From Acidobacteria bacterium Mor1 (GTDB taxonomy: Bacteria; Acidobacteriota; Polarisedimenticolia; Polarisedimenticolales; Polarisedimenticolaceae): DNA of 16,270 bases. The translations under genes and the position numbers were made by a program. Below are positions 1,267 through 11,383 of this stretch, piece by piece; within the stretch, counting starts at the first letter, position 1; every line of letters begins with the position of its first letter. Where the stretch lies: the NCBI GenBank assembly GCA_001664505.1, contig CP011806.1, forward strand, positions 4,411,328 through 4,427,597, given 5' to 3'. The notes beneath the pieces are model-generated. The model was not told where the DNA came from. It saw only the letters and a program-made list of their open reading frames with translations, and made no database searches.

Positions 1267-4200
1267 ATGCCATCAATACGACGCCGCGTGGTTCGCGCTG
1301 CGCTGCTGCCCCTGCTGCTGGTCGTCACCCTGAGCGCCCTTTTCGCCGGCACCGCCACGGTCTACCGCGACGAAAACGGCGTTCCCCATATCGAGGCGGA
1401 TACCGAAGAGGCCGCCTGGTACGCCCTGGGCTTCGAGGAGGCCCGGGACGCGCTGATGTACATCCAATTCAACGTGAAGCGCTGGCGCGGTGAGGAGGCG
1501 AAGTACGTCGATCCCACCGGTCTGGCGCCCGACAGGGACATGACCGTCAAGATCCTGGAGACCCACCTGGGCTTCGACGAGGAGGTGATCCGCCGGACCC
1601 TCGAACTGTCCAGCCCGCGTGAGGCGGAACACAAGGATCAGTTGTTCTTCAACCTCAAGGCGTACACCGCGGGGATCGAGGCGTACCGGGAGGAACTACT
1701 GGGGCAACCGGACCACCCGCATCACCACTACCTCCGAGAGCAGGCGCTGGACTGGGTGTTGGAGCATCCGATCTACGTCGGGGATGTGGCCTCCTGGGGC
1801 CGGTTCAACAAGGGCTGGACCGGGGCCGGCATCGCGGCTCTGGGTGACCGAACTCGGAATTCTCCACCCAACGTTCCCTTTGCCGGAAACGGCCTGGAAG
1901 CCTCGGCGGACAGCGCTCTACCAACCCACGAGGAGCCTCAGGGGACGATCCGGGAGCAACTGACCCAGGGCGGCACCGAGGGGATGAAGGAGCTCAAGGA
2001 ACGGATGGCCGGGATCCCCGGAATGGGGTCCAACGGCATGTGCTGGACCTTTTTCTACCAGCGCGAGGGCGAGCGGCGCTACTCCGGCTGCATGGGTGAT
2101 CCCCAGGGGCCCGCGGTGCCCGACGCGATCTTCAATCAAGACGTGTTCTCCGGGATCCTCGAGTCGGACCGGCCCTGGTTTGCCCACATCGTGGTGAACA
2201 ACCCCGAAGACCCGGTCAACGTGTTCGGCTACGTTCACCATGGTGCCGGCGTGATGTTCATCTCCCACAACCAGGACGTGGCCTACGGCGGAAGCGCCGG
2301 GTCACCCAACCTCTCGGACACCTTCCTGCTCCGCATGGCGATGGATGACGAGGGTTATCCGGCGTTGCCTTACCGGGTCTACAACCACTACGCCGACAGC
2401 AACGGGAACAACGGAGAGGATCCGGAGGATTGGCTGGAGCTGATCGACGACCCGATCACCGTGGAACGGCGGAATTCGACGCCCGTGACCCGCACGATCT
2501 GGCGCGCCGGCCCCTTCGGTTTCGTCAACAACCGCCACGTGTTGTTCGTGCGCGCCAACGAGCCGTGGCACTGGGGGCTCGATCCGGGCACACCCTCCAA
2601 CGAGTACTTCGCCACGCCTCAGCGTGATGCCGAAGGCAACCTCATCACCGTCCCGGTGGTCGTTTCATGGCGGGTGCCGCTGGATCGCAACGTCGACTCG
2701 CCGGAGATCGATCACCACTCGCGAATGGCCAACGGTTTCTACCGGGTGATGAAAGCGCGGACCATCTACGACGTCTGGGAGAAGGTCTACGACCACGACC
2801 TGAGCTTCATGGTCAACTTCTGCGCCGTCGATCGCGAGGGCCGGCTGTTCGCCAGCGTGATCGGCACGATTCCCGAGCGGGGGGATCTCGAGGCCATCAT
2901 CGCCAGCTCCGCGGAGCCGAAACACGCCTTCGACGTCTGGGACATCTACGACAAGAGCGGCGATCAGGATCCGGTGCCGGCGCGCTACTACGGCGACCGG
3001 ATCTTTGACTGGCGGCTCAACGATCAGGCCAATCCGGCGTCGGGGGTCCGCTACCTCGATGTGTACCCGGCGGACGCCGACCCGCCGAGCTCCTATCAGC
3101 CCTACATCTACTTCGACCCCAACGACACCGCGGCCAACAATCCGCCCTTCAGCGTCGACGATGAGCTGGAGGACAACGTGCTCGGGTTCGTGACCGCATC
3201 CAACGACGCGATCTGGAACTACTTCAAGAAGCGTTGGACGCTGACCGAGATCGAGCCGGAGCCCGGCGCCGCACCCAGTAGCGATGTCGCTCCCTTCGCT
3301 CCGATCGAGACCGACAACCTGGTTCTGCGTCAGATCTTCCAGGCGGGCACCATGTACCACACCGCTCTGGCAGGTTGGTATGCGCTGCCCAAGAACCACG
3401 CGATGATCGACGAGTTCGAGAAGATCTCGTCGGGCTTCATCTCGGGAACACAGCAGCCGGCGCCCTTCACCCACGAACGAGCCCGGGACTTCGTCGAGGG
3501 CAACTGGCATCTGGCGACCTACGACTACAAGGGGCCTCGTGGGGACGGCGTGCTCGTGGTCGACGGCGCGGAAGAGGCGTTTACCTCCCGGATCGCTCAC
3601 GAGGTGTTCGCCAGCTGGGATCAGGGACCCTTCGGCCCGATCTCTCAAGAGTTCGATCGCGAGGTTCGTTTCTTCGAGGACCTGATGTCGGCTCTCCAGA
3701 ATCCTCCTGACGGCAGCGATTGGCAGGCTTACTCGGACGAGTTGGGTGAGCCGAGCCGCTATGAGGGGGAGAGCCTCTATGACATCTGGGTGGCCAATAC
3801 CTTCGAATCGGTCTTCCGCTACGGAGAGAGCGGGCTGATCGAGGATGGGATGCCCCCGCACCTGGGCCTGATCGATTTCGACTGGACCCAGAGCGAGATC
3901 GGCTCGGGGCGGATCGCCGACGTGCTGGCTGATTCCGGGCTGTCCGGCACCGATCGCGCGCACCTCGAGGCGGCATTCCAACTGCTCGTCGAGTGGGACG
4001 TGGCCGACCCCGGCGCCAATCGTCATCGGGTCGAGCCGGGTTCCCAGGCGGCGACCTTGCTCGCCCAGTACGGGCTGGGCTACGACGCGGGGCATCGGGA
4101 CTTCCTGTCCCAGGAGAACTACCGGGCGGGACGGAAATGGGTGCCGTTGTTCAACGGTCAGCCCGCAAGCGGTTCGGAGGCGAACCCCTTCTGTTACGAC

Positions 4201-5106
4201 ACGCCGCCCTCCGGTGGCCCGGAGCCGCTACAGTTCGTGCAGAGCTATGGAGCCTACCGCTTCCTGGCCAACCCGCTGGACCCCCATGCCTCGATCGTCG
4301 GCGATGCTCCGGGACTCGACCTGACCCGCAACCTGGCGGCACCACCCTACGACGCGCTCTACATCGACGAGGCGGCGCGGGATGTGCGCACGCAACTCTC
4401 CCGTGCCCAGGTCACCGAGCTCGTCGAGTTCTTCCTGGAGCTCGGTGGTTGGCTCGACGGCAACAACGTCTCCGGAAAGCGCGAGGCGTTCCTCGAGACC
4501 CGTTGCGCAGTCACCGGGCAGAACAACAACAGCTACTACGACTTCTCCAAGCTGTATGCGCCGACCTATCCGTTGACCCGGAACATGTCGCGGCTCCTGG
4601 TGCTGCGCCGGCTCCTGGCGGCCAAGCTGTGGCTCGAGGCGGAGTACGGCGAGATTCCGGCGATGCAGCAGATCTATCAAGCGCGCTACTACTCGGCCAA
4701 CGATCAGCTTTATCACCAGGGGCCGGTGGTGGCCGAGGGGGATGGAGGGATCCGTCCAGTGGGTTGCTTGCCGATCATCGACCCGGTGTACTCGGGCCCG
4801 AACCTGGCAAGGCTCGGTATCGAGAGTCAGCGGGGGCGTGGGTTCCAGCGGGAGATGTACTGCTACGGCGGCGGGATGAGCCCGGTGTTGACCTACCTGC
4901 CTTACCGGGAGAGTCCCGACGACCCGCTGGAACCGGCGCAGGCGTACTTCTGGAACGTTCCGGGACAGGTGTTCTCGGACTTCGATTCGCCCCATCACGC
5001 CGACATGGTCGACAACTGGGCCCTGCGCCAATTGCTCGATTCCCATGAACAGGACTATGACGAGGGGGGAGCGCCGGCTGCGAGTCACACCTATCCCTTG
5101 CCGTAA
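1267..5106 (+). CDS. Penicillin acylase family protein (secreted Ntn hydrolase, extended)
   Basis: This 1279-residue protein belongs to the penicillin amidase/acyl-homoserine-lactone acylase family (S45), periplasmic enzymes that hydrolyse amides after self-cleavage into alpha and beta chains. Residues 1 to about 27 are a signal peptide (RRR, then a long hydrophobic run). Residues 31-80 hold the family opening VYRDENGVPHIEAD and a GFEEARD block. The predicted autocleavage is at Gly254-Ser255 (GMGSNGMCW). Ser255 would be the N-terminal nucleophile of the beta chain, and Gln280 in GDPQG matches Gln23 of the E. coli penicillin G acylase beta chain. Later family blocks are SHNQDVAYGGSAG and VDREGRLFASVIGTIPERG, and near the C-terminus DSPHHADMVDNW. 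Typical members have about 750-850 residues, so about 450 are extra, mainly in the second half. The substrate (beta-lactam, AHL, peptide or other amide) cannot be told from sequence. The family call is firm. Confidence 0.88.
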   Translation: MPSIRRRVVRAALLPLLLVVTLSALFAGTATVYRDENGVPHIEADTEEAAWYALGFEEARDALMYIQFNVKRWRGEEAKYVDPTGLAPDRDMTVKILETHLGFDEEVIRRTLELSSPREAEHKDQLFFNLKAYTAGIEAYREELLGQPDHPHHHYLREQALDWVLEHPIYVGDVASWGRFNKGWTGAGIAALGDRTRNSPPNVPFAGNGLEASADSALPTHEEPQGTIREQLTQGGTEGMKELKERMAGIPGMGSNGMCWTFFYQREGERRYSGCMGDPQGPAVPDAIFNQDVFSGILESDRPWFAHIVVNNPEDPVNVFGYVHHGAGVMFISHNQDVAYGGSAGSPNLSDTFLLRMAMDDEGYPALPYRVYNHYADSNGNNGEDPEDWLELIDDPITVERRNSTPVTRTIWRAGPFGFVNNRHVLFVRANEPWHWGLDPGTPSNEYFATPQRDAEGNLITVPVVVSWRVPLDRNVDSPEIDHHSRMANGFYRVMKARTIYDVWEKVYDHDLSFMVNFCAVDREGRLFASVIGTIPERGDLEAIIASSAEPKHAFDVWDIYDKSGDQDPVPARYYGDRIFDWRLNDQANPASGVRYLDVYPADADPPSSYQPYIYFDPNDTAANNPPFSVDDELEDNVLGFVTASNDAIWNYFKKRWTLTEIEPEPGAAPSSDVAPFAPIETDNLVLRQIFQAGTMYHTALAGWYALPKNHAMIDEFEKISSGFISGTQQPAPFTHERARDFVEGNWHLATYDYKGPRGDGVLVVDGAEEAFTSRIAHEVFASWDQGPFGPISQEFDREVRFFEDLMSALQNPPDGSDWQAYSDELGEPSRYEGESLYDIWVANTFESVFRYGESGLIEDGMPPHLGLIDFDWTQSEIGSGRIADVLADSGLSGTDRAHLEAAFQLLVEWDVADPGANRHRVEPGSQAATLLAQYGLGYDAGHRDFLSQENYRAGRKWVPLFNGQPASGSEANPFCYDTPPSGGPEPLQFVQSYGAYRFLANPLDPHASIVGDAPGLDLTRNLAAPPYDALYIDEAARDVRTQLSRAQVTELVEFFLELGGWLDGNNVSGKREAFLETRCAVTGQNNNSYYDFSKLYAPTYPLTRNMSRLLVLRRLLAAKLWLEAEYGEIPAMQQIYQARYYSANDQLYHQGPVVAEGDGGIRPVGCLPIIDPVYSGPNLARLGIESQRGRGFQREMYCYGGGMSPVLTYLPYRESPDDPLEPAQAYFWNVPGQVFSDFDSPHHADMVDNWALRQLLDSHEQDYDEGGAPAASHTYPLP

Positions 5107-5123
5107 GTGAATTACTTCTAGAG

Positions 5124-5149
5124 AGGGGGCCGGCCGCCGCCGGCCCCCT
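5124..5149 (+). terminator. GC-rich hairpin after the acylase gene
   Basis: AGGGGGCCGGC (5124-5134) and GCCGGCCCCCT (5139-5149) form a perfect 11-bp stem with a 4-nt loop, starting 18 nt after the acylase stop codon. No T-tract follows, so it is not a canonical intrinsic terminator. It may act with Rho or protect the 3' end, and it separates the acylase gene from the next operon. Confidence 0.55.
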
Positions 5150-5161
5150 GAGGAGATTCCA

Positions 5162-5190
5162 CCGACAATTTGTCGGGATCGAAGTAGATT
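5162..5190 (+). promoter_or_regulatory. Candidate promoter with overlapping perfect dyad
   Basis: CCGACAATTTGTCGG (5162-5176) is a perfect 7-bp-arm palindrome around one central T. It cannot fold as an RNA hairpin with so short a loop, so a DNA operator is more likely. Its left arm CCGACA matches four of six bases of the sigma-70 -35 box. It is followed after 17 nt by TAGATT (5185-5190), four of six bases of a -10 box. It lies 42 bp before the sigma-factor start and would serve the four-gene operon. The promoter assignment is tentative. Confidence 0.4.
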
Positions 5191-5231
5191 CGCTCCAGAG
5201 CTGACTCCGTACGTTTTCAGGGGAGGAAGCT

Positions 5232-5912
5232 ATGGGACGAAGGGACCCGGGCGAGCGGGCACCGGAGCTATCGGCGACGACGGCAGGTGCGTTAGACTTG
5301 CGCCTTGAGCCACAACGGGTGTCGCTCGGGGGCGGTCGCAACATGTTCGAGGAACGGCTTCGCCAGGTCGTCCACGGCGATCGCGACGCGAAAGACTGGC
5401 TCTACCGTACCTTCGCCCCGGATCTCCTGCGCCGTATCTCCCGCCGCTACGGCTATCCCATGGGGGTCGACCCGGAAGAGCTGCTCCACGACACCTTCGT
5501 CTACCTGTTCGACCGTCAGGCGCGTCCCCTCCGGCGGCTGCTCGAAAAAGACAGCGCGGAACTGCACGAGGAGCGCATCGGGCGATTCCTCTGGGACGCG
5601 GCCTGTGGAATCGCGGCGAACCGCAAGCGCTCGGCGGCTTCCCGGCCGGTCTCGGTAGCTCACGACGAGTCCCGCGACCTCTTGGAGAGCTTCGAATCGG
5701 AGGTGCTGACCCGGGACTACCTGGACCGGCTGGCGCGCTGCATCCACGGCGCCAAGACCCGGGTGTATCTCTACTTCCGGCTGCGGTTCGTTGACGGGTT
5801 CACCCCACAGGAGATCGCCGCGATGACCGGCTGGGCGCGGCAAACGGTCTACAACACCAAGAGCGATCTCGAGAAGGCGGTGCAGGCATGCGTCGATTCG
5901 ATGTCGCACTGA
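5232..5912 (+). CDS. ECF-type sigma-70 family RNA polymerase sigma factor
   Basis: This 226-residue cytoplasmic protein has ECF sigma architecture. Region 2 spans about residues 52-133, with AKDWLYRTFAPDLLRRISRR and the core-binding-like DPEELLHDTFVYLF. A variable linker follows, then region 4 at about 160-220, with the helix-turn-helix FTPQEIAAMTGWARQTVYNTKS. GGAGG (5222-5226) lies 5 nt before ATG 5232 and supports this start. The sigma similarity only begins at MFEERLR, so ATG 5343 (189 residues, the usual ECF length) is an alternative, but its upstream SD is poor. It is the first gene of the operon, and its last 25 nt overlap the CHAT gene. It would direct RNA polymerase to its own regulon, and control by the anti-sigma-like protein two genes downstream is inferred from linkage. 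It does not match any named ECF group I can recognise. Confidence 0.85.
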   Translation: MGRRDPGERAPELSATTAGALDLRLEPQRVSLGGGRNMFEERLRQVVHGDRDAKDWLYRTFAPDLLRRISRRYGYPMGVDPEELLHDTFVYLFDRQARPLRRLLEKDSAELHEERIGRFLWDAACGIAANRKRSAASRPVSVAHDESRDLLESFESEVLTRDYLDRLARCIHGAKTRVYLYFRLRFVDGFTPQEIAAMTGWARQTVYNTKSDLEKAVQACVDSMSH

Positions 5913-8563
5913 CCCTGCTCGGGTTGATCCTGACCGCGGTGGCCTGCGGCCCCGGGGATCGGGTGCCGAACCTGGACGATCGGGGATACGCCCTTGCCGG
6001 TCACGATGACCTGGTCACGCTGGACGGCCGGCTGGTGCCCCGGGTGATCCGCCCCGACGCCAGCCTGCGTCTCTGCCTCGAGACTCGCATCGGCGAGGAC
6101 GTGTCGGAGTGGTCGGCCCGGCTGGCATTCGAGAACGAGACCGGCGTCGAGCCGCTGCCGGTCTCGCGAGTATCCGGCGGCTCGGTCTGCTTCGAGCGTG
6201 TCTTGCCGCCGGCCCTCGACGAAGGGCGGGCAGTGCTCAGCTTGCAGGTGGTCGACGCCTACGACGGCGCGGTGGTGTTATCTGACCGACTGACCCTGTT
6301 GATCGACCGGGACAACCCGGTGGCCGCCGCCGTTCGCGCCGAGTACCGCGATGCGATCCGCAAGCTCGGCCGGGTCTCCACCGGGGACTACGTCGACGAG
6401 ATGACCGGCGTGTCTCGCCGCGCGCGTGAAGCGGAGTTGCCGCTGCTGGCCGCCAGCGCCGACGCGATCGCCGCCTACGCGCTGCGCCGCGACGGGAGCG
6501 AGGCCTCCCGCGCTACCGCCGGGCGGTTGCTCCGGTCGCCGGGTCCCTGGTTCGGCCACCCGTTGGCCGCGCCGCGAACGGCCGATTGGCATTACGAGCG
6601 TGGGGCTCTGGCGCAGGCCCAGGGGCCGTCCGGGCCGAATCGTCTTCCGGAGGCCTGGCTACACTTCTCCGAAGCGGATCGCCAGTACAGCCGGGTGGCC
6701 AGCCCCAAGGGGATCAACGCCGCGACAAAACGGGCGGAGATCCTCCGCCGCCGCGGGAAGGGCGAGGATGCCGTGGACCTGATCGATCGCGCGCTCAGCC
6801 GTTGTGCCGACTGCGAACCGATCCAGCGAAGCTTCGCGCGCAACAGTCAGGCGTTCATGATCGCCGCCGATCCTTCCTCGACGTCCGAGAGGCTGGAGCG
6901 GGCGCGTTCTGCGCTGCGGCAGGCCATCGCGGAGTTGCCGGAAGAAGCGCAGCCCCTCGAACGAGTCAACCTGCTGGTGAATCAGGGGCTGCTCGATGCC
7001 CGGGCAGGTGTGGTCGACGAACAGCTGCTGGCCCTTGCGGTCGAGGTGTTGGAGCGGGGCGTCGCCAGCGACGTTGAGCGAGCCCGGGAGCTCCGACCCT
7101 GGGTTCCGCTGGCTCGCGGCGTGGCTGCCCTCGTTCGAGGGGACCCTGCCGGCGCCCGCCGGCATTGCGCGTCGATCGCGGCAACGGAACCCCGGGTCGT
7201 CGCGGCACGGGCAGCTTGCCTGGCCGAAGCCTGGAGCGAGGGAGGGGAGATCGATCGTGCCTGGGCGGCCATCGCCGAGGCGCTGGAGATTCACCAGGTC
7301 GGTGAAGAAGCCGCGACGCGAGCGCTACCCCGGCGGGATCACGATATCCGCCTCGCGGCGTGGATCGCGCTCGAGCGGGGAGATCCGGAGCAGGCCTGGG
7401 AGTTGCTGGAGTCCCTCGATCGAGTCACGGCGGAGCCGCCTTCCTTCCGGAACGGTGCAGAACGGAAGGAGCTGCTGAGCGCACTCCGAACGCTGCATCG
7501 GCCGGCGGGGCTGTCGGCTCAGGCGTTGCGTGACGCCCAGATGGACGACGTGCGCCGTCAACTCACCGATTCGGCGGAGTCCCCCGAGTTTCGCGACGGC
7601 GGCGACGATGACAGCCGGCCGAAGCTGCGCTACGGGCTCCTGCGGGACGAGTTGGTGATCCTGCGGCGCCACTCGTTCGAACGGGTCTCGGTGTTGCGCC
7701 GCACGCCGGTGGACGCCGCAGAGCTTCAGGCCTGGACGCGCGAGATCGAGATTGCTCTACAGCAGGGAGTTCTCGACGATCCCGCCTGGCGCGAACTGGC
7801 CGGGCGCTTTGGCCCGCTTCTCGTGCCGCCGCCGTCGGCGTTGTCGCCGCGGATCGAGCTGATCGCCCACGGCATCCTCCAGCGGGTTCCCTTCGCGGCG
7901 CTTCCTCTCGGCGATGGGTGGCTCGGCGATCGAACCCAGGTGGCCCACGTGGTGGCGTCGATTCCCCGCAGCAGGAGCACCGAGGGCGGGCACTCGGTGT
8001 TCGTGACCGATCCCACCGGCGACCTGTACGCCGCGGCTCGTTCCCGGGCGGTCTACCAACGCCTGTTCCCGCAGGCACGGCAACTCGGCCGGTCTGAGGC
8101 GAAGGTCGAAGCCCTGTTGGCAGCGGTGCCCGGCGCCCGCTGGCTCCATCTGGACGCCCACGCCGAACCGGATCTGGCCTATCCGGGGTTGTCCCGATTC
8201 CGGCTGGCGGATGCCGATGTCTTCGTCGAGGAGATCTTGGCCGTGGGGAACAAATTGGAACTGGTCAATCTCAGCGGTTGCCGCACCGGCGCTCAGCGGA
8301 TCTCCGCCGGAGGAGGTCGCTTCGGCATGGGAGGGGCCTTCGCGGGACAGGGGGTGCCCCACGTCGTGGCGACCCGGGCCGATGTGCGCGACGAACTCGT
8401 CGCCGATTTCAATGAGCATCTTTACACGACGTTGAGCGCGGGCGGGGATGTCCCGACCGCCTACAGCGCAGGCCTGAAGCACGTCAGCCGGCGCCATCCT
8501 GCGGTTCGTTGGGGGGCCTTGATCTTGCTGACGCCGTCGGCAGCCAGGGGGGACACGCTTTGA
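5888..8563 (+). CDS. Lipoprotein with TPR-like repeats and C-terminal CHAT peptidase domain
   Basis: The protein has 891 residues. The N-terminus MRRFDVALTLLGLILTAVAC is a probable lipoprotein signal (Cys20, a weak lipobox AVA-C), so it should be exported and membrane-anchored. Residues about 30-140 look like a beta-sandwich. Residues about 150-570 are Ala/Arg/Glu-rich paired helices of TPR type, usual sensor or partner-binding units. Residues about 580-889 are a CHAT (caspase HetF-associated) domain. It shows IELIAHGILQRVPFAALPLG, then HLDAHAE with predicted catalytic His758 and VNLSGCRTG with predicted catalytic Cys798. The 40-residue spacing suits a clan CD Cys/His dyad. The fold ends in VPTAYSAGL and WGALILL, as in other CHAT proteins. 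The gene overlaps the sigma gene by 25 nt and shares a TTGA junction with the next gene. The peptidase role is predicted from motifs, and the target is unknown. Confidence 0.88.
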   Translation: MRRFDVALTLLGLILTAVACGPGDRVPNLDDRGYALAGHDDLVTLDGRLVPRVIRPDASLRLCLETRIGEDVSEWSARLAFENETGVEPLPVSRVSGGSVCFERVLPPALDEGRAVLSLQVVDAYDGAVVLSDRLTLLIDRDNPVAAAVRAEYRDAIRKLGRVSTGDYVDEMTGVSRRAREAELPLLAASADAIAAYALRRDGSEASRATAGRLLRSPGPWFGHPLAAPRTADWHYERGALAQAQGPSGPNRLPEAWLHFSEADRQYSRVASPKGINAATKRAEILRRRGKGEDAVDLIDRALSRCADCEPIQRSFARNSQAFMIAADPSSTSERLERARSALRQAIAELPEEAQPLERVNLLVNQGLLDARAGVVDEQLLALAVEVLERGVASDVERARELRPWVPLARGVAALVRGDPAGARRHCASIAATEPRVVAARAACLAEAWSEGGEIDRAWAAIAEALEIHQVGEEAATRALPRRDHDIRLAAWIALERGDPEQAWELLESLDRVTAEPPSFRNGAERKELLSALRTLHRPAGLSAQALRDAQMDDVRRQLTDSAESPEFRDGGDDDSRPKLRYGLLRDELVILRRHSFERVSVLRRTPVDAAELQAWTREIEIALQQGVLDDPAWRELAGRFGPLLVPPPSALSPRIELIAHGILQRVPFAALPLGDGWLGDRTQVAHVVASIPRSRSTEGGHSVFVTDPTGDLYAAARSRAVYQRLFPQARQLGRSEAKVEALLAAVPGARWLHLDAHAEPDLAYPGLSRFRLADADVFVEEILAVGNKLELVNLSGCRTGAQRISAGGGRFGMGGAFAGQGVPHVVATRADVRDELVADFNEHLYTTLSAGGDVPTAYSAGLKHVSRRHPAVRWGALILLTPSAARGDTL

Positions 8564-9342
8564 GTTCCAATCACGAAGCCCTTGAATGGGATATCGGCCG
8601 GGTGGACCCGATGGTCGACCACCGCAGCGTGAACCGGGAGGATCTGATCGCCTATCGCGACGGGCGCCTGAGCGCCGAAGATTGCGACCGGATCGAGCAA
8701 CAGCTGGTGATGAGTGCGGCGGCCCGCCGAGAGTTGGCGCGGCTTGCCGGAATCGCGCCGCTGCCGGTTCCGCCTCGCAGAAAAGATGCCACGAAGCCGG
8801 GCGGCGCCGGTTTCCGCAGGCGTTCCCTGCTGGGTCTGGCTGCGGTGGCCGCCCTGGTTCTTGCCGGATTGTTGGCGGTTCGGTTCATCCAGGAGGATGC
8901 GCGGGTGGAGCCGCTTTCGGGTGCGGTCTATGCACTGGAAGTTTCGGGCCTTGCCGACCGGCGAGGTGCCGGCGACGCCATCGCGGCCACGGCATATCCG
9001 GATACCGAAGTGCGCATTCGCCTGCGAGCGGTGGAGGGGGATCGTGCGGGGACTCACTTCGGACTGTTCGTCGGCGGTGAGAGCGGCCTGACCCGGGCGG
9101 ATCGGGACCCGCGTATTCGGAAGCTCGCCGAGCGCGGCATCGTCGAGTGGGCCGGTCCGGCCCGGGCGTTGGTCGGCGGGGCGCCCGGGACCTACGCCCT
9201 GTTCGCCATCGCGACCTCATCGCCGTTGCCCGAGGCGATTCCGCTGCCGAACCCCGATACGGAACGAGTCGGAGAGGCGTTGCCGCACTCCCTCGTGTAC
9301 GCGCAGACATTGACGATTCTGAAGAACCCTGAAGTGGATTGA
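8560..9342 (+). CDS. Single-pass membrane anti-sigma-like protein lacking zinc ligands
   Basis: I place the start at TTG 8560, which overlaps the CHAT stop codon (TTGA) and has AGGGGGG 7 nt upstream, giving 260 residues. ATG 8611 is an alternative. The cytoplasmic N-terminus (about 20-60) has the anti-sigma form LIAYRDGRLSAEDCDRIEQQL. Against the usual zinc-binding EaHLaaCxxC, the His and both Cys are Gln48, Ser52 and Ala55, so no zinc site is expected. After a basic segment (FRRRS), residues 90-110 form one transmembrane helix. The remaining 150 residues would be extracytoplasmic and match no family I know. Linkage with the sigma gene and this topology suggest a membrane anti-sigma factor that holds the sigma protein until its outer domain is altered. 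Function is inferred, since the similarity is short and the hallmark residues are gone. Confidence 0.68.
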   Translation: MSSNHEALEWDIGRVDPMVDHRSVNREDLIAYRDGRLSAEDCDRIEQQLVMSAAARRELARLAGIAPLPVPPRRKDATKPGGAGFRRRSLLGLAAVAALVLAGLLAVRFIQEDARVEPLSGAVYALEVSGLADRRGAGDAIAATAYPDTEVRIRLRAVEGDRAGTHFGLFVGGESGLTRADRDPRIRKLAERGIVEWAGPARALVGGAPGTYALFAIATSSPLPEAIPLPNPDTERVGEALPHSLVYAQTLTILKNPEVD

Positions 9343-9351
9343 GGAGGAAGT

Positions 9352-10890
9352 ATGACTCCATGGATCAAACAACATGCCGCTCTCGCGTTGGCGTGTCTCG
9401 CCCTGTCGTCGGCGCCGACCGGGGCGTGGGGCATGTCCTGGGCGCTCTACGAGCCCGATTGCTCCCTGGGTCAATCCACCCTCGAGGTGCCCTGCGGGAA
9501 CTACGGAGTCTTCCATTTCGGTTCGATCGTGGTGCCCGCCGGGTGCGCGTTGATGGCCGATGCCTACGAAGCGCCGCCGATCTACGCCGAGCCCGAGGCG
9601 CCGGTACTGCTCGAGTCCGACGCGGTGGTCACCAGCGGAGCCTTCCTCGAGCAGCCGGAGCCGCCGACCGACTGGATCGCCGTGATCGATTTCGACGACG
9701 ATCACGGCGAGAGCACGGCAGAGCTCGCCGCGCGTATCGCCGGGGATTCGGGGCTCTACGACGTGACGTCGGTCCTGCACGTGCTGGACGATCCGGAGCT
9801 TTCGGCCCTCGGGGCCGGGGTCAACGACTATCACGTGCTGGCCAACGTCTGCCGGATTCGGGAGAACGTGGATCGTGCCGGCCTTGCCGTTCCCCACGCG
9901 ATCAACATGAGTTTCGGACGGCTGCACACCATCGCCGATCCGTCGGATGCATCCTGCCAGGAGAACACGATCGCCTGCCAGATCGAGCGGGTGCTGGCGA
10001 CGTTGCGGGAGAGCGGCGCCCGGATCGTCGCGGCGGCGGGCAATCAGCGCGAGGTACTGTTTCCGAGCTCGCTTCCTTCGGTCACCGCCGTGGGCATGCT
10101 CGACGGTTCGCTCTACACCGGTCAGTCGCTGGTCTCCGCCGCCTGGGAGAGCCCCTCGTCCTACGGTGCGCTGCTGCCCGGGCAGGGGCTCTGCCTCGAC
10201 GGAACACCGCTTCCCAACGGTTCGTCGTATTCCAGCGCGTTTCTGGCGGGCTGGCTGACCCACGGCCGCATGGCCGGCTTCGAGCTGGACGCCGAGGGAG
10301 ATATCTTCCAGCCGTCGGTTCATCCCGACGCTTCTTGCCGCGTGCTGAAGTACGGGGCCTCGCAGCTTACGCAGTGCAACGACACCGTCGAGGCCTACTT
10401 CAACGGGATGGCCGGCCTGGACAGCCCCGTCGGCTGCGATGGAAACGGAGGCGTTCCCGATGACTTCGTGGAGCTCGAGGTCGACCTGGACGACCCGACC
10501 TCCGTGCCCGGCTTTGCCCGCTGGGTCCAACAGGTCGCTCCGACTCCGGAGTCCGATCCCTGTGTGCCTTGCCAGGGAGACCTGGGCGGCGGTTCGTTGA
10601 GCATCAACATGTCCGCGAGCCAGCCGCTGCCTTCGGGCACCCACGTTGCTTCGGTTCATCTGCGGGTCGATTCAGGATTCTTCCGGCTGGCCTTGACGCC
10701 ATCCAACCTCAACGCGATTCGCAACGGGCAACTCGGCCGACTGCTCATCGCCGATGGTGCGCAACTGGTGAATCCCGCCGGTCCGCAGCCCTCGTTGGTC
10801 TTCACGCTGACCCGTCAACCAGGGATCAAATGCAGCAGCTCCAACGCTTGCTTCTGGGTGTCGAGCCCGATCACCCTGCAGAGTCCCTGA
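9352..10890 (+). CDS. Secreted subtilisin-like (S8) serine peptidase homologue, compact catalytic core
   Basis: The protein has 512 residues. GGAGG lies 4 nt before ATG 9352, 9 nt after the anti-sigma stop. Residues 1 to about 26 are a signal peptide. The S8 motifs occur in order. Asp113 is in IAVIDFDD and His118 is in DHGESTAELAARIAG, where HGT has become HGE. INMSFG precedes the oxyanion Asn231 in AAAGNQ, and Ser292 lies in NGSSYSSAFLAG (usual GTSMA). Asp and His are only 5 residues apart, against about 30 in subtilisin, so the loop and strand between them are missing. No clear inhibitory propeptide is visible beyond the leader and a roughly 80-residue N-terminal stretch. Residues about 370-512 are a beta-rich Cys-containing tail (CVPCQGD and KCSSSNAC). 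It ends the sigma-CHAT-anti-sigma operon. It may cut the anti-sigma outer domain, be a sigma target product, or be a non-catalytic relative. Confidence 0.78.
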   Translation: MTPWIKQHAALALACLALSSAPTGAWGMSWALYEPDCSLGQSTLEVPCGNYGVFHFGSIVVPAGCALMADAYEAPPIYAEPEAPVLLESDAVVTSGAFLEQPEPPTDWIAVIDFDDDHGESTAELAARIAGDSGLYDVTSVLHVLDDPELSALGAGVNDYHVLANVCRIRENVDRAGLAVPHAINMSFGRLHTIADPSDASCQENTIACQIERVLATLRESGARIVAAAGNQREVLFPSSLPSVTAVGMLDGSLYTGQSLVSAAWESPSSYGALLPGQGLCLDGTPLPNGSSYSSAFLAGWLTHGRMAGFELDAEGDIFQPSVHPDASCRVLKYGASQLTQCNDTVEAYFNGMAGLDSPVGCDGNGGVPDDFVELEVDLDDPTSVPGFARWVQQVAPTPESDPCVPCQGDLGGGSLSINMSASQPLPSGTHVASVHLRVDSGFFRLALTPSNLNAIRNGQLGRLLIADGAQLVNPAGPQPSLVFTLTRQPGIKCSSSNACFWVSSPITLQSP

Positions 10891-10897
10891 GGCCGAG

Positions 10898-10939
10898 AAC
10901 CGTGGCGCGACGTGGCGCAAGCACCACGTCGCGCCGGTT
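10898..10939. terminator. Bidirectional terminator hairpin between convergent genes
   Basis: GGCGCGACGTGG (10904-10915) and CCACGTCGCGCC (10924-10935) pair perfectly over 12 bp with an 8-nt loop. AACC (10898-10901) and GGTT (10936-10939) extend the stem beyond a 2-nt bulge. It lies 7 nt past the S8 stop and 15 nt from the stop of the convergent Cys-rich gene, so it can serve both. There is no long T-tract. Confidence 0.65.
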
Positions 10940-10954
10940 CACGTCCGGTACGCT

Positions 10955-11383
10955 CTAGCGAGCGCCTTCCACCGGCTCGGTGTCTTCGGTCTCCCAGGGG
11001 TCGACCGGCATCGTCTTGGGATGGCACTCCCAACTGCAGAAGCACTTGCAATCGGAGGCGCAGATCTTGTTGTCCTTGACGCTGCAGTTGACGTTGCGTT
11101 TCGATTGGCCTGCGGGGCAGACGATAAGCGCGGAGGTCTTGCAGCTCTTGCTGGTGCAGTCCCCGGTCCCGTCGCAGAAGCTCGTTTCTTTCTTCGTGTA
11201 GGGAGCCGAGAGCTCGAGCACGGGATCGTGCACGAACGTGAATGCCGCGCCGGCATCGGCGACTTCGGCGCAGGCGATCGGCGCAGTCGAGTGGAACGTG
11301 ACTCGGTCGTCTGCATCTCCGGCGAAACCGGCGCCGGCGATCAGGAGGGTGGCAACGATCAGCAGGATCTGGTGGATCTTCAC
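10955..11383 (-). CDS. Small secreted cysteine-rich protein of unknown function
   Basis: I favour GTG 11383 (142 residues, MKIHQILLIVATLLIAGAGFAG) because GGGAG lies 7 nt upstream. ATG 11389 is in frame but only 1 nt from that SD. Residues 1 to about 20 are a clear Sec signal peptide. The mature protein, about 120 residues, has 11 cysteines, mostly in the second half (FCDGTGDCTSKSCKT, IVCPAG, NVNCSVKDNKICASDCKCFCSWECHP). This suggests several disulfides outside the cytoplasm, one Cys being unpaired or linking a partner, or a metal site. The C-terminal tail is acidic (DPWETEDTEPVE). I recognise no family. It lies downstream of and co-directional with the Reeler-like gene, with a 143-bp gap full of inverted repeats, so it may have its own transcript. 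Confidence 0.68.
   Translation of the reverse strand: MKIHQILLIVATLLIAGAGFAGDADDRVTFHSTAPIACAEVADAGAAFTFVHDPVLELSAPYTKKETSFCDGTGDCTSKSCKTSALIVCPAGQSKRNVNCSVKDNKICASDCKCFCSWECHPKTMPVDPWETEDTEPVEGAR

Follow-up and report, generated by a model that had tools for sequence, protein, structure and literature searches.

Two predicted proteases encoded in one operon with a sigma factor and its candidate inhibitor raise an obvious question: do they act on that inhibitor and so release the sigma factor, or do they process something else? We addressed it for a window of 16,270 nt (the whole stretch of DNA analysed here), positions 4411328-4427597 of the genome of Acidobacteria bacterium Mor1, a single contig of 5.985 Mb. 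The first-pass annotation had described four codirectional genes in this window, and our reading of the open reading frames returned them at the same places, and the overlaps (25 nt, then 4 nt) and gap (9 nt) that had been claimed are exact. The CHAT gene sits between SIG and ANTI and overlaps both. The elements are as follows:

5105..5160, + strand: strong hairpin (z -4.3) between a penicillin amidase gene and SIG, likely the 3' end of the penicillin amidase transcript
5162..5176, no strand assigned: dyad CCGACAATTTGTCGG, folding z -0.8, no better than shuffles
5232..5912, + strand: sigma gene (SIG), ORF of 226 aa
5888..8563, + strand: CHAT gene, ORF for an exported lipoprotein
8560..9342, + strand: anti-sigma gene (ANTI), ORF with a TTG start
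9352..10890, + strand: S8 gene, ORF for a secreted S8-like (subtilase) protein
10885..10965, + strand: strong hairpin (z -3.6) after the S8 gene, with no U-run

The operon had been placed between a promoter-proximal dyad and a terminator hairpin, and these bounds stood only in part: the dyad exists and a strong hairpin lies 3' of S8, but the latter lacks a U-run. The dyad folds no better than shuffled sequence and was not found at the paralogous operons, which rules it out as a shared operator. No shared promoter was found upstream of the SIG genes, where a Gibbs search scored just slightly above random.

The four-gene set is conserved in Acidobacteriota

SIG-CHAT-ANTI-S8, with the order kept, recurs six more times, so that the gene-neighbourhood check suggested in the first-pass annotation came out positive. 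Four of the seven copies are in the Mor1 genome, where L046, L047 and L048 are paralogous to the operon of the window, and three are in other Acidobacteriota. One of these (L049) lies in genome G110, from the same taxonomic order as Mor1. In G172, from another class, SIG-CHAT is on one short contig (L011) and ANTI-S8 on another (L050), which we infer to be a single split operon. The last copy (L073) is intact and belongs to Acidobacteria bacterium Dive96_bin10.49. The ANTI genes of L047 and L049 were identified by sequence searches.

When the S8 protein was searched over 297 genomes of the phylum, matches were obtained only in Mor1 (four copies), G110 and G172. Full-length CHAT matches in these 297 genomes fell at the S8-family loci, and the SIG family at E<1e-15 was present in 3/297 genomes, the identical three. 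Against named genomes the CHAT protein gave no match as a query, while the S8 alignment gave two loci, both in Acidobacteria MAGs, and added L073.

Both proteases always co-occur in this four-gene subfamily, and the gene junctions are similar among the copies, with a CHAT/ANTI overlap of 4 nt in five of the six readable ones and a SIG/CHAT overlap of 25 or 28 nt in four. Since pairwise identities are low (34-48% for SIG, 23-32% for ANTI, 27-42% for S8), the gene order has been kept over a long divergence. Distance matrices were star-like and uninformative: of the correlations between the families only SIG-CHAT was significant, in a comparison that included two CHAT rows in the wrong frame. The proteins are divergent, and a sequence-only reading had left room for coincidence, that is, for an ordinary ECF operon beside unrelated neighbours; however seven copies in four genomes with one gene order and low pairwise identity, together with the genome-wide CHAT/sigma association in Mor1 (see below), refute this idea, to which we give practically no weight.

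A gene for a large exported protein, codirectional with the operon, adjoins five of the seven copies and also the stub variant L081 described below. The exported neighbours have differing folds: penicillin amidase, an HZS_alpha-domain protein (twice), a MauG-like propeller, a CEMIP/G8 beta-helix and a Kelch protein. The penicillin amidase gene upstream of the operon in the window (1267-5106, + strand) is unusually long (1279 aa), and a penicillin amidase gene is also found near L073 (L073:12496-14934, - strand), so that such genes adjoin or are 6 kb from two operon copies. The exported proteins of L046 (1750-4848, - strand) and L049 (11642-14845, - strand) are 48% identical and carry the middle domain of hydrazine synthase alpha (HZS_alpha); in one of the two genomes the gene lies just downstream of the operon, in the other just upstream.

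A fifth SIG paralogue lacks CHAT, S8 and the ANTI ectodomain

Mor1 encodes a fifth SIG paralogue (L081, position 2084928) with neither CHAT nor S8. The gene order at this locus (5656-10336 of the region 2079000-2096000) is the SIG paralogue, a 62-residue ORF and an exported Kelch-repeat protein, and the 62-residue ORF matches the cytosolic anti-sigma domain only (profile E 8e-10) and has neither a membrane helix nor an ectodomain. A seeming CHAT match that overlapped the L081 sigma gene was discarded as an artefact of untrimmed overlapping frames in the profile. Because the ANTI cytosolic domain is encoded between CHAT and the ectodomain/S8, L081 would have taken more than one deletion if it arose by loss. 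At this single locus the co-absence fits an action of CHAT and S8 on the ANTI ectodomain.

The Kelch protein (L081:6884-10336) has the C-terminal tail GTLGTDSDGTERTGAVCP, and the large exported protein at L047:1732-5088 ends in GTACP; the two proteins may have a C-terminal domain or a sorting signal in common.

Predicted properties of the four proteins

SIG proved to be a divergent ECF sigma factor, as had been annotated. It has sigma-70 regions 2 and 4 and lacks region 3, with a conserved core from about residue 40. Its Pfam matches were below cut-off (Sigma70_r4_2, 3e-4; Sigma70_ECF, 0.012), and every PDB match of the family profile at E<=0.1 was an ECF-type sigma factor (best E 0.009).

For ANTI, the description as a membrane anti-sigma-like protein was also borne out. 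The AlphaFold model shows a single-pass protein with cytosolic helices at residues 26-63 (high pLDDT), a membrane helix at 92-111 and an Ig-like ectodomain at 121-253, the latter superposing on a VHH with Z 10.5 and rmsd 2.3 over 104 aligned residues. Pfam gave a weak zf-HC2 match (0.019) with the zinc ligands missing, and the sole PDB match of the profile, over the cytosolic helices and marginal at E 0.035, was 3hug_B, which we take to be RslA, the anti-sigma factor bound to SigL. The zinc motif HxxxCxxC is absent from ANTI in all copies, a motif that zinc-less ASDs do not require. With its N-terminal ASD helices and a single membrane helix followed by an outer domain, ANTI has the features of class I (ASD) membrane anti-sigma factors, and we have strong grounds to regard SIG and ANTI as a cognate pair.

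The product of the CHAT gene is, in agreement with the annotation, a TPR-like CHAT lipoprotein. Its C-terminal CHAT domain (PF12770, 3e-22) follows an N-terminal region and a TPR-like one, and 7/7 copies have both His758 and Cys798. In the window copy the lipobox reads ..LTAVAC; among all copies, five have a lipobox and two a hydrophobic N-terminal anchor, with no other membrane helix. Searched against the PDB at E<=0.1, the CHAT family profile returned just TPR and other helical chains, and no Csx29 chain.

The call of a secreted S8 homologue was likewise supported, by a signal peptide predicted in all copies, by a Peptidase_S8 match just under cut-off (1.4e-4) and by the catalytic residues. 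The protein consists of the signal peptide, an N-terminal beta region, the catalytic domain and a C-terminal beta region with a conserved DPCxPC. Asp113, His118, Asn231 and Ser292 occur in order, are invariant in six copies and are kept in the seventh. Canonical subtilisins have about 30 residues between Asp and His; every copy in this family has only about 5, a conserved trait. The structural model has low confidence (mean pLDDT 63); in it a strand ends at Asp113 and a helix begins at His118, the arrangement expected of S8, and a variable low-confidence linker separates the N-terminal beta region from the catalytic domain. Around Asn and Ser, the motifs can be aligned with the AK.1 protease (1dbi). 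The model is too poor for a clear match in the fold search: Foldseek gave nothing below 1e-3, and the EpiP subtilase was one of its weak matches. Since the catalytic residues of both CHAT and S8 are kept, both are probably active proteases, judging from their sequences.

CHAT genes lie close to ECF sigma genes beyond the four-gene family

In the Mor1 genome, with 21 CHAT matches, 67 loci counted as sigma genes and the expectation obtained by rotation, 16 of the 21 CHAT genes had an ECF sigma gene no more than 6 kb away, against 2.6 expected. With the four SIG-CHAT-ANTI-S8 operons removed, this was still the case for 12/17. In five other Acidobacteriota it held for 7 of the 18 CHAT genes (1.3 expected), and in one of these five none of four was near a sigma gene. 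At the six loci inspected in the five genomes, not counting the SIG-CHAT-ANTI-S8 family, genes for sigma-like, anti-sigma-like and exported CHAT proteins adjoin in varying orientations. The His/Cys dyad is kept in the other exported CHAT proteins that were aligned, and a membrane helix followed by over 100 further residues is present in 20/20 of the CHAT-linked anti-sigmas tested.

The S8 of the four-gene family is absent from the other sigma/CHAT loci of the Mor1 genome. Since these loci do without it, sigma, anti-sigma and CHAT look like the core, and S8 like the property of one subfamily. The first-pass claim that two peptidases are linked to a sigma/anti-sigma pair is therefore valid for the four-gene subfamily but not for the wider triads.

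Beside the paralogous operon L047 there is a second, divergent cluster of sigma, anti-sigma and exported CHAT genes (L047 11500-15588). Exported beta-propeller-like proteins with similar starts (EVWVANENGSFTVIDAVDN and alike) and no Pfam match also adjoin sigma/anti-sigma/CHAT genes (L060:8307-9866, L062:8625-10259, L064:2590-4212 and L059:8649-10280).

Proposed mechanism and alternatives

We tentatively favour, over the two alternatives considered below, a reading in which the operon is a self-contained cell-envelope signalling unit that frees its sigma factor by proteolysis, CHAT being either the site-1 protease that the operon encodes or the activator of that protease. The ECF sigma factor would be held at the inner membrane by ANTI, through a cytosolic sigma-binding domain joined by the membrane helix to the Ig-like outer domain. 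Exported and tethered to the membrane, the TPR-CHAT protease would sense an envelope signal or a partner and would then cut the outer domain of ANTI, directly or through the secreted S8 protease, after which a housekeeping site-2 protease would finish ANTI and free the sigma factor. Site-2 protease (Peptidase_M50) genes are present in the Mor1 genome. The topology invoked by the annotation is predicted for all copies, with CHAT and S8 exported and ANTI carrying an outer domain, although this alone proves little, since membrane-bound anti-sigmas are the usual kind. That CHAT or S8 may act on ANTI is an inference of moderate strength.

The sharing of an operon by the protease genes and the sigma gene is also what one would see if CHAT and S8 were outputs: SIG/ANTI would sense the envelope via its own ectodomain and drive the operon, as ECF operons are commonly autoregulated, and the proteases would degrade or process another substrate, be it envelope proteins that are misfolded or foreign or the product of the neighbouring gene for a large exported protein. 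We regard this as a possible but less probable explanation. The codirectional exported neighbours agree with it, as does the varying orientation of CHAT relative to sigma in the wider triads; however large exported proteins are common in the Mor1 genome, so these neighbours may be there by chance, and a pure output role would not predict that L081, which lacks CHAT and S8, also lacks the ANTI ectodomain.

Unlikely, in our view, is a cascade in which CHAT matures an S8 zymogen by a cut in the variable linker (about residues 82-105) and the sigma pair controls the dose, with S8 as an executioner outside the cell or as the actual site-1 protease. The layout of S8, in which this linker lies between the N-terminal beta region and the catalytic domain, would suit such a maturation, as would the constant company of the two proteases in the four-gene subfamily. 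Against it, no cleavage site is conserved in S8, the model that shows the linker is of low confidence, and the other sigma/CHAT loci of Mor1 show no S8 of this family.

Relation to known systems

In its membrane anti-sigma factor with a cytosolic sigma-binding domain and an outer domain, and in the site-2 protease genes of the genome, the system resembles the regulated proteolysis of membrane anti-sigmas of the DegS/RseP-RseA-RpoE, RsiW and RsiV types. In place of DegS, PrsW or signal peptidase, the candidates for the site-1 role are two products of the sigma operon itself, a CHAT lipoprotein of the caspase clan and an S8 protein. ANTI is like RslA of SigL (3hug) in its cytosolic helices, at the marginal E value given above, but has no zinc ligands, and its ectodomain has no sequence match. 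The operon S8 shares with Peptidase S8 (1dbi, AK.1 protease) the Asn and Ser motifs and the order of elements in the catalytic domain, and differs from it in the short Asp-His spacing and in the extra N- and C-terminal beta regions.

To our knowledge, most bacterial CHAT proteases outside Craspase have no known function, and their systematic pairing, as exported proteins, with ECF sigma/anti-sigma genes offers a testable hypothesis for the role of many of them. Among the papers searched, ECF sigma genes with CHAT neighbours appeared only in work on type III-E CRISPR. There the TPR-CHAT protease Csx29 is encoded with an ECF sigma factor (CASP-sigma) and its inhibitor Csx30, and cleavage of Csx30 by TPR-CHAT relieves the inhibition of the sigma factor (PMC10028731). 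No cas gene was recognised among the operon neighbours and PADLOC gave no match to the four operon proteins; judged by these, the operon does not belong to type III-E CRISPR, which has Cas7-11 (gRAMP) and a CRISPR array together with the TPR-CHAT gene. The parallel drawn by the first-pass annotation survives as one of logic (TPR-CHAT, sigma inhibitor, sigma) but not of sequence, where the CHAT profile has no Csx29 match in the PDB, nor of place, as CHAT is predicted to be extracytoplasmic.

Set against type III-E (Craspase/CASP), the operon differs in that its CHAT protein is predicted to leave the cytoplasm and stay tethered, its sigma inhibitor sits in the membrane and carries an Ig-like ectodomain, and an S8 protein is encoded as well. 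If CHAT cuts ANTI, caspase-like enzymes would have to be counted among the known site-1 proteases, and the Craspase-sigma circuit would have, at the cell surface, a counterpart that is much more widespread and does without CRISPR. It is conceivable, though we put it somewhat below an even chance, that Acidobacteriota hold a large undescribed class of envelope-signalling systems in which the dedicated trigger is an exported, caspase-like TPR-CHAT protease, which cuts an anti-sigma factor in the membrane and so releases the ECF sigma factor; SIG-CHAT-ANTI-S8, with four copies in one genome, would be one subfamily of this class, and Craspase-sigma its intracellular, RNA-guided counterpart in logic.
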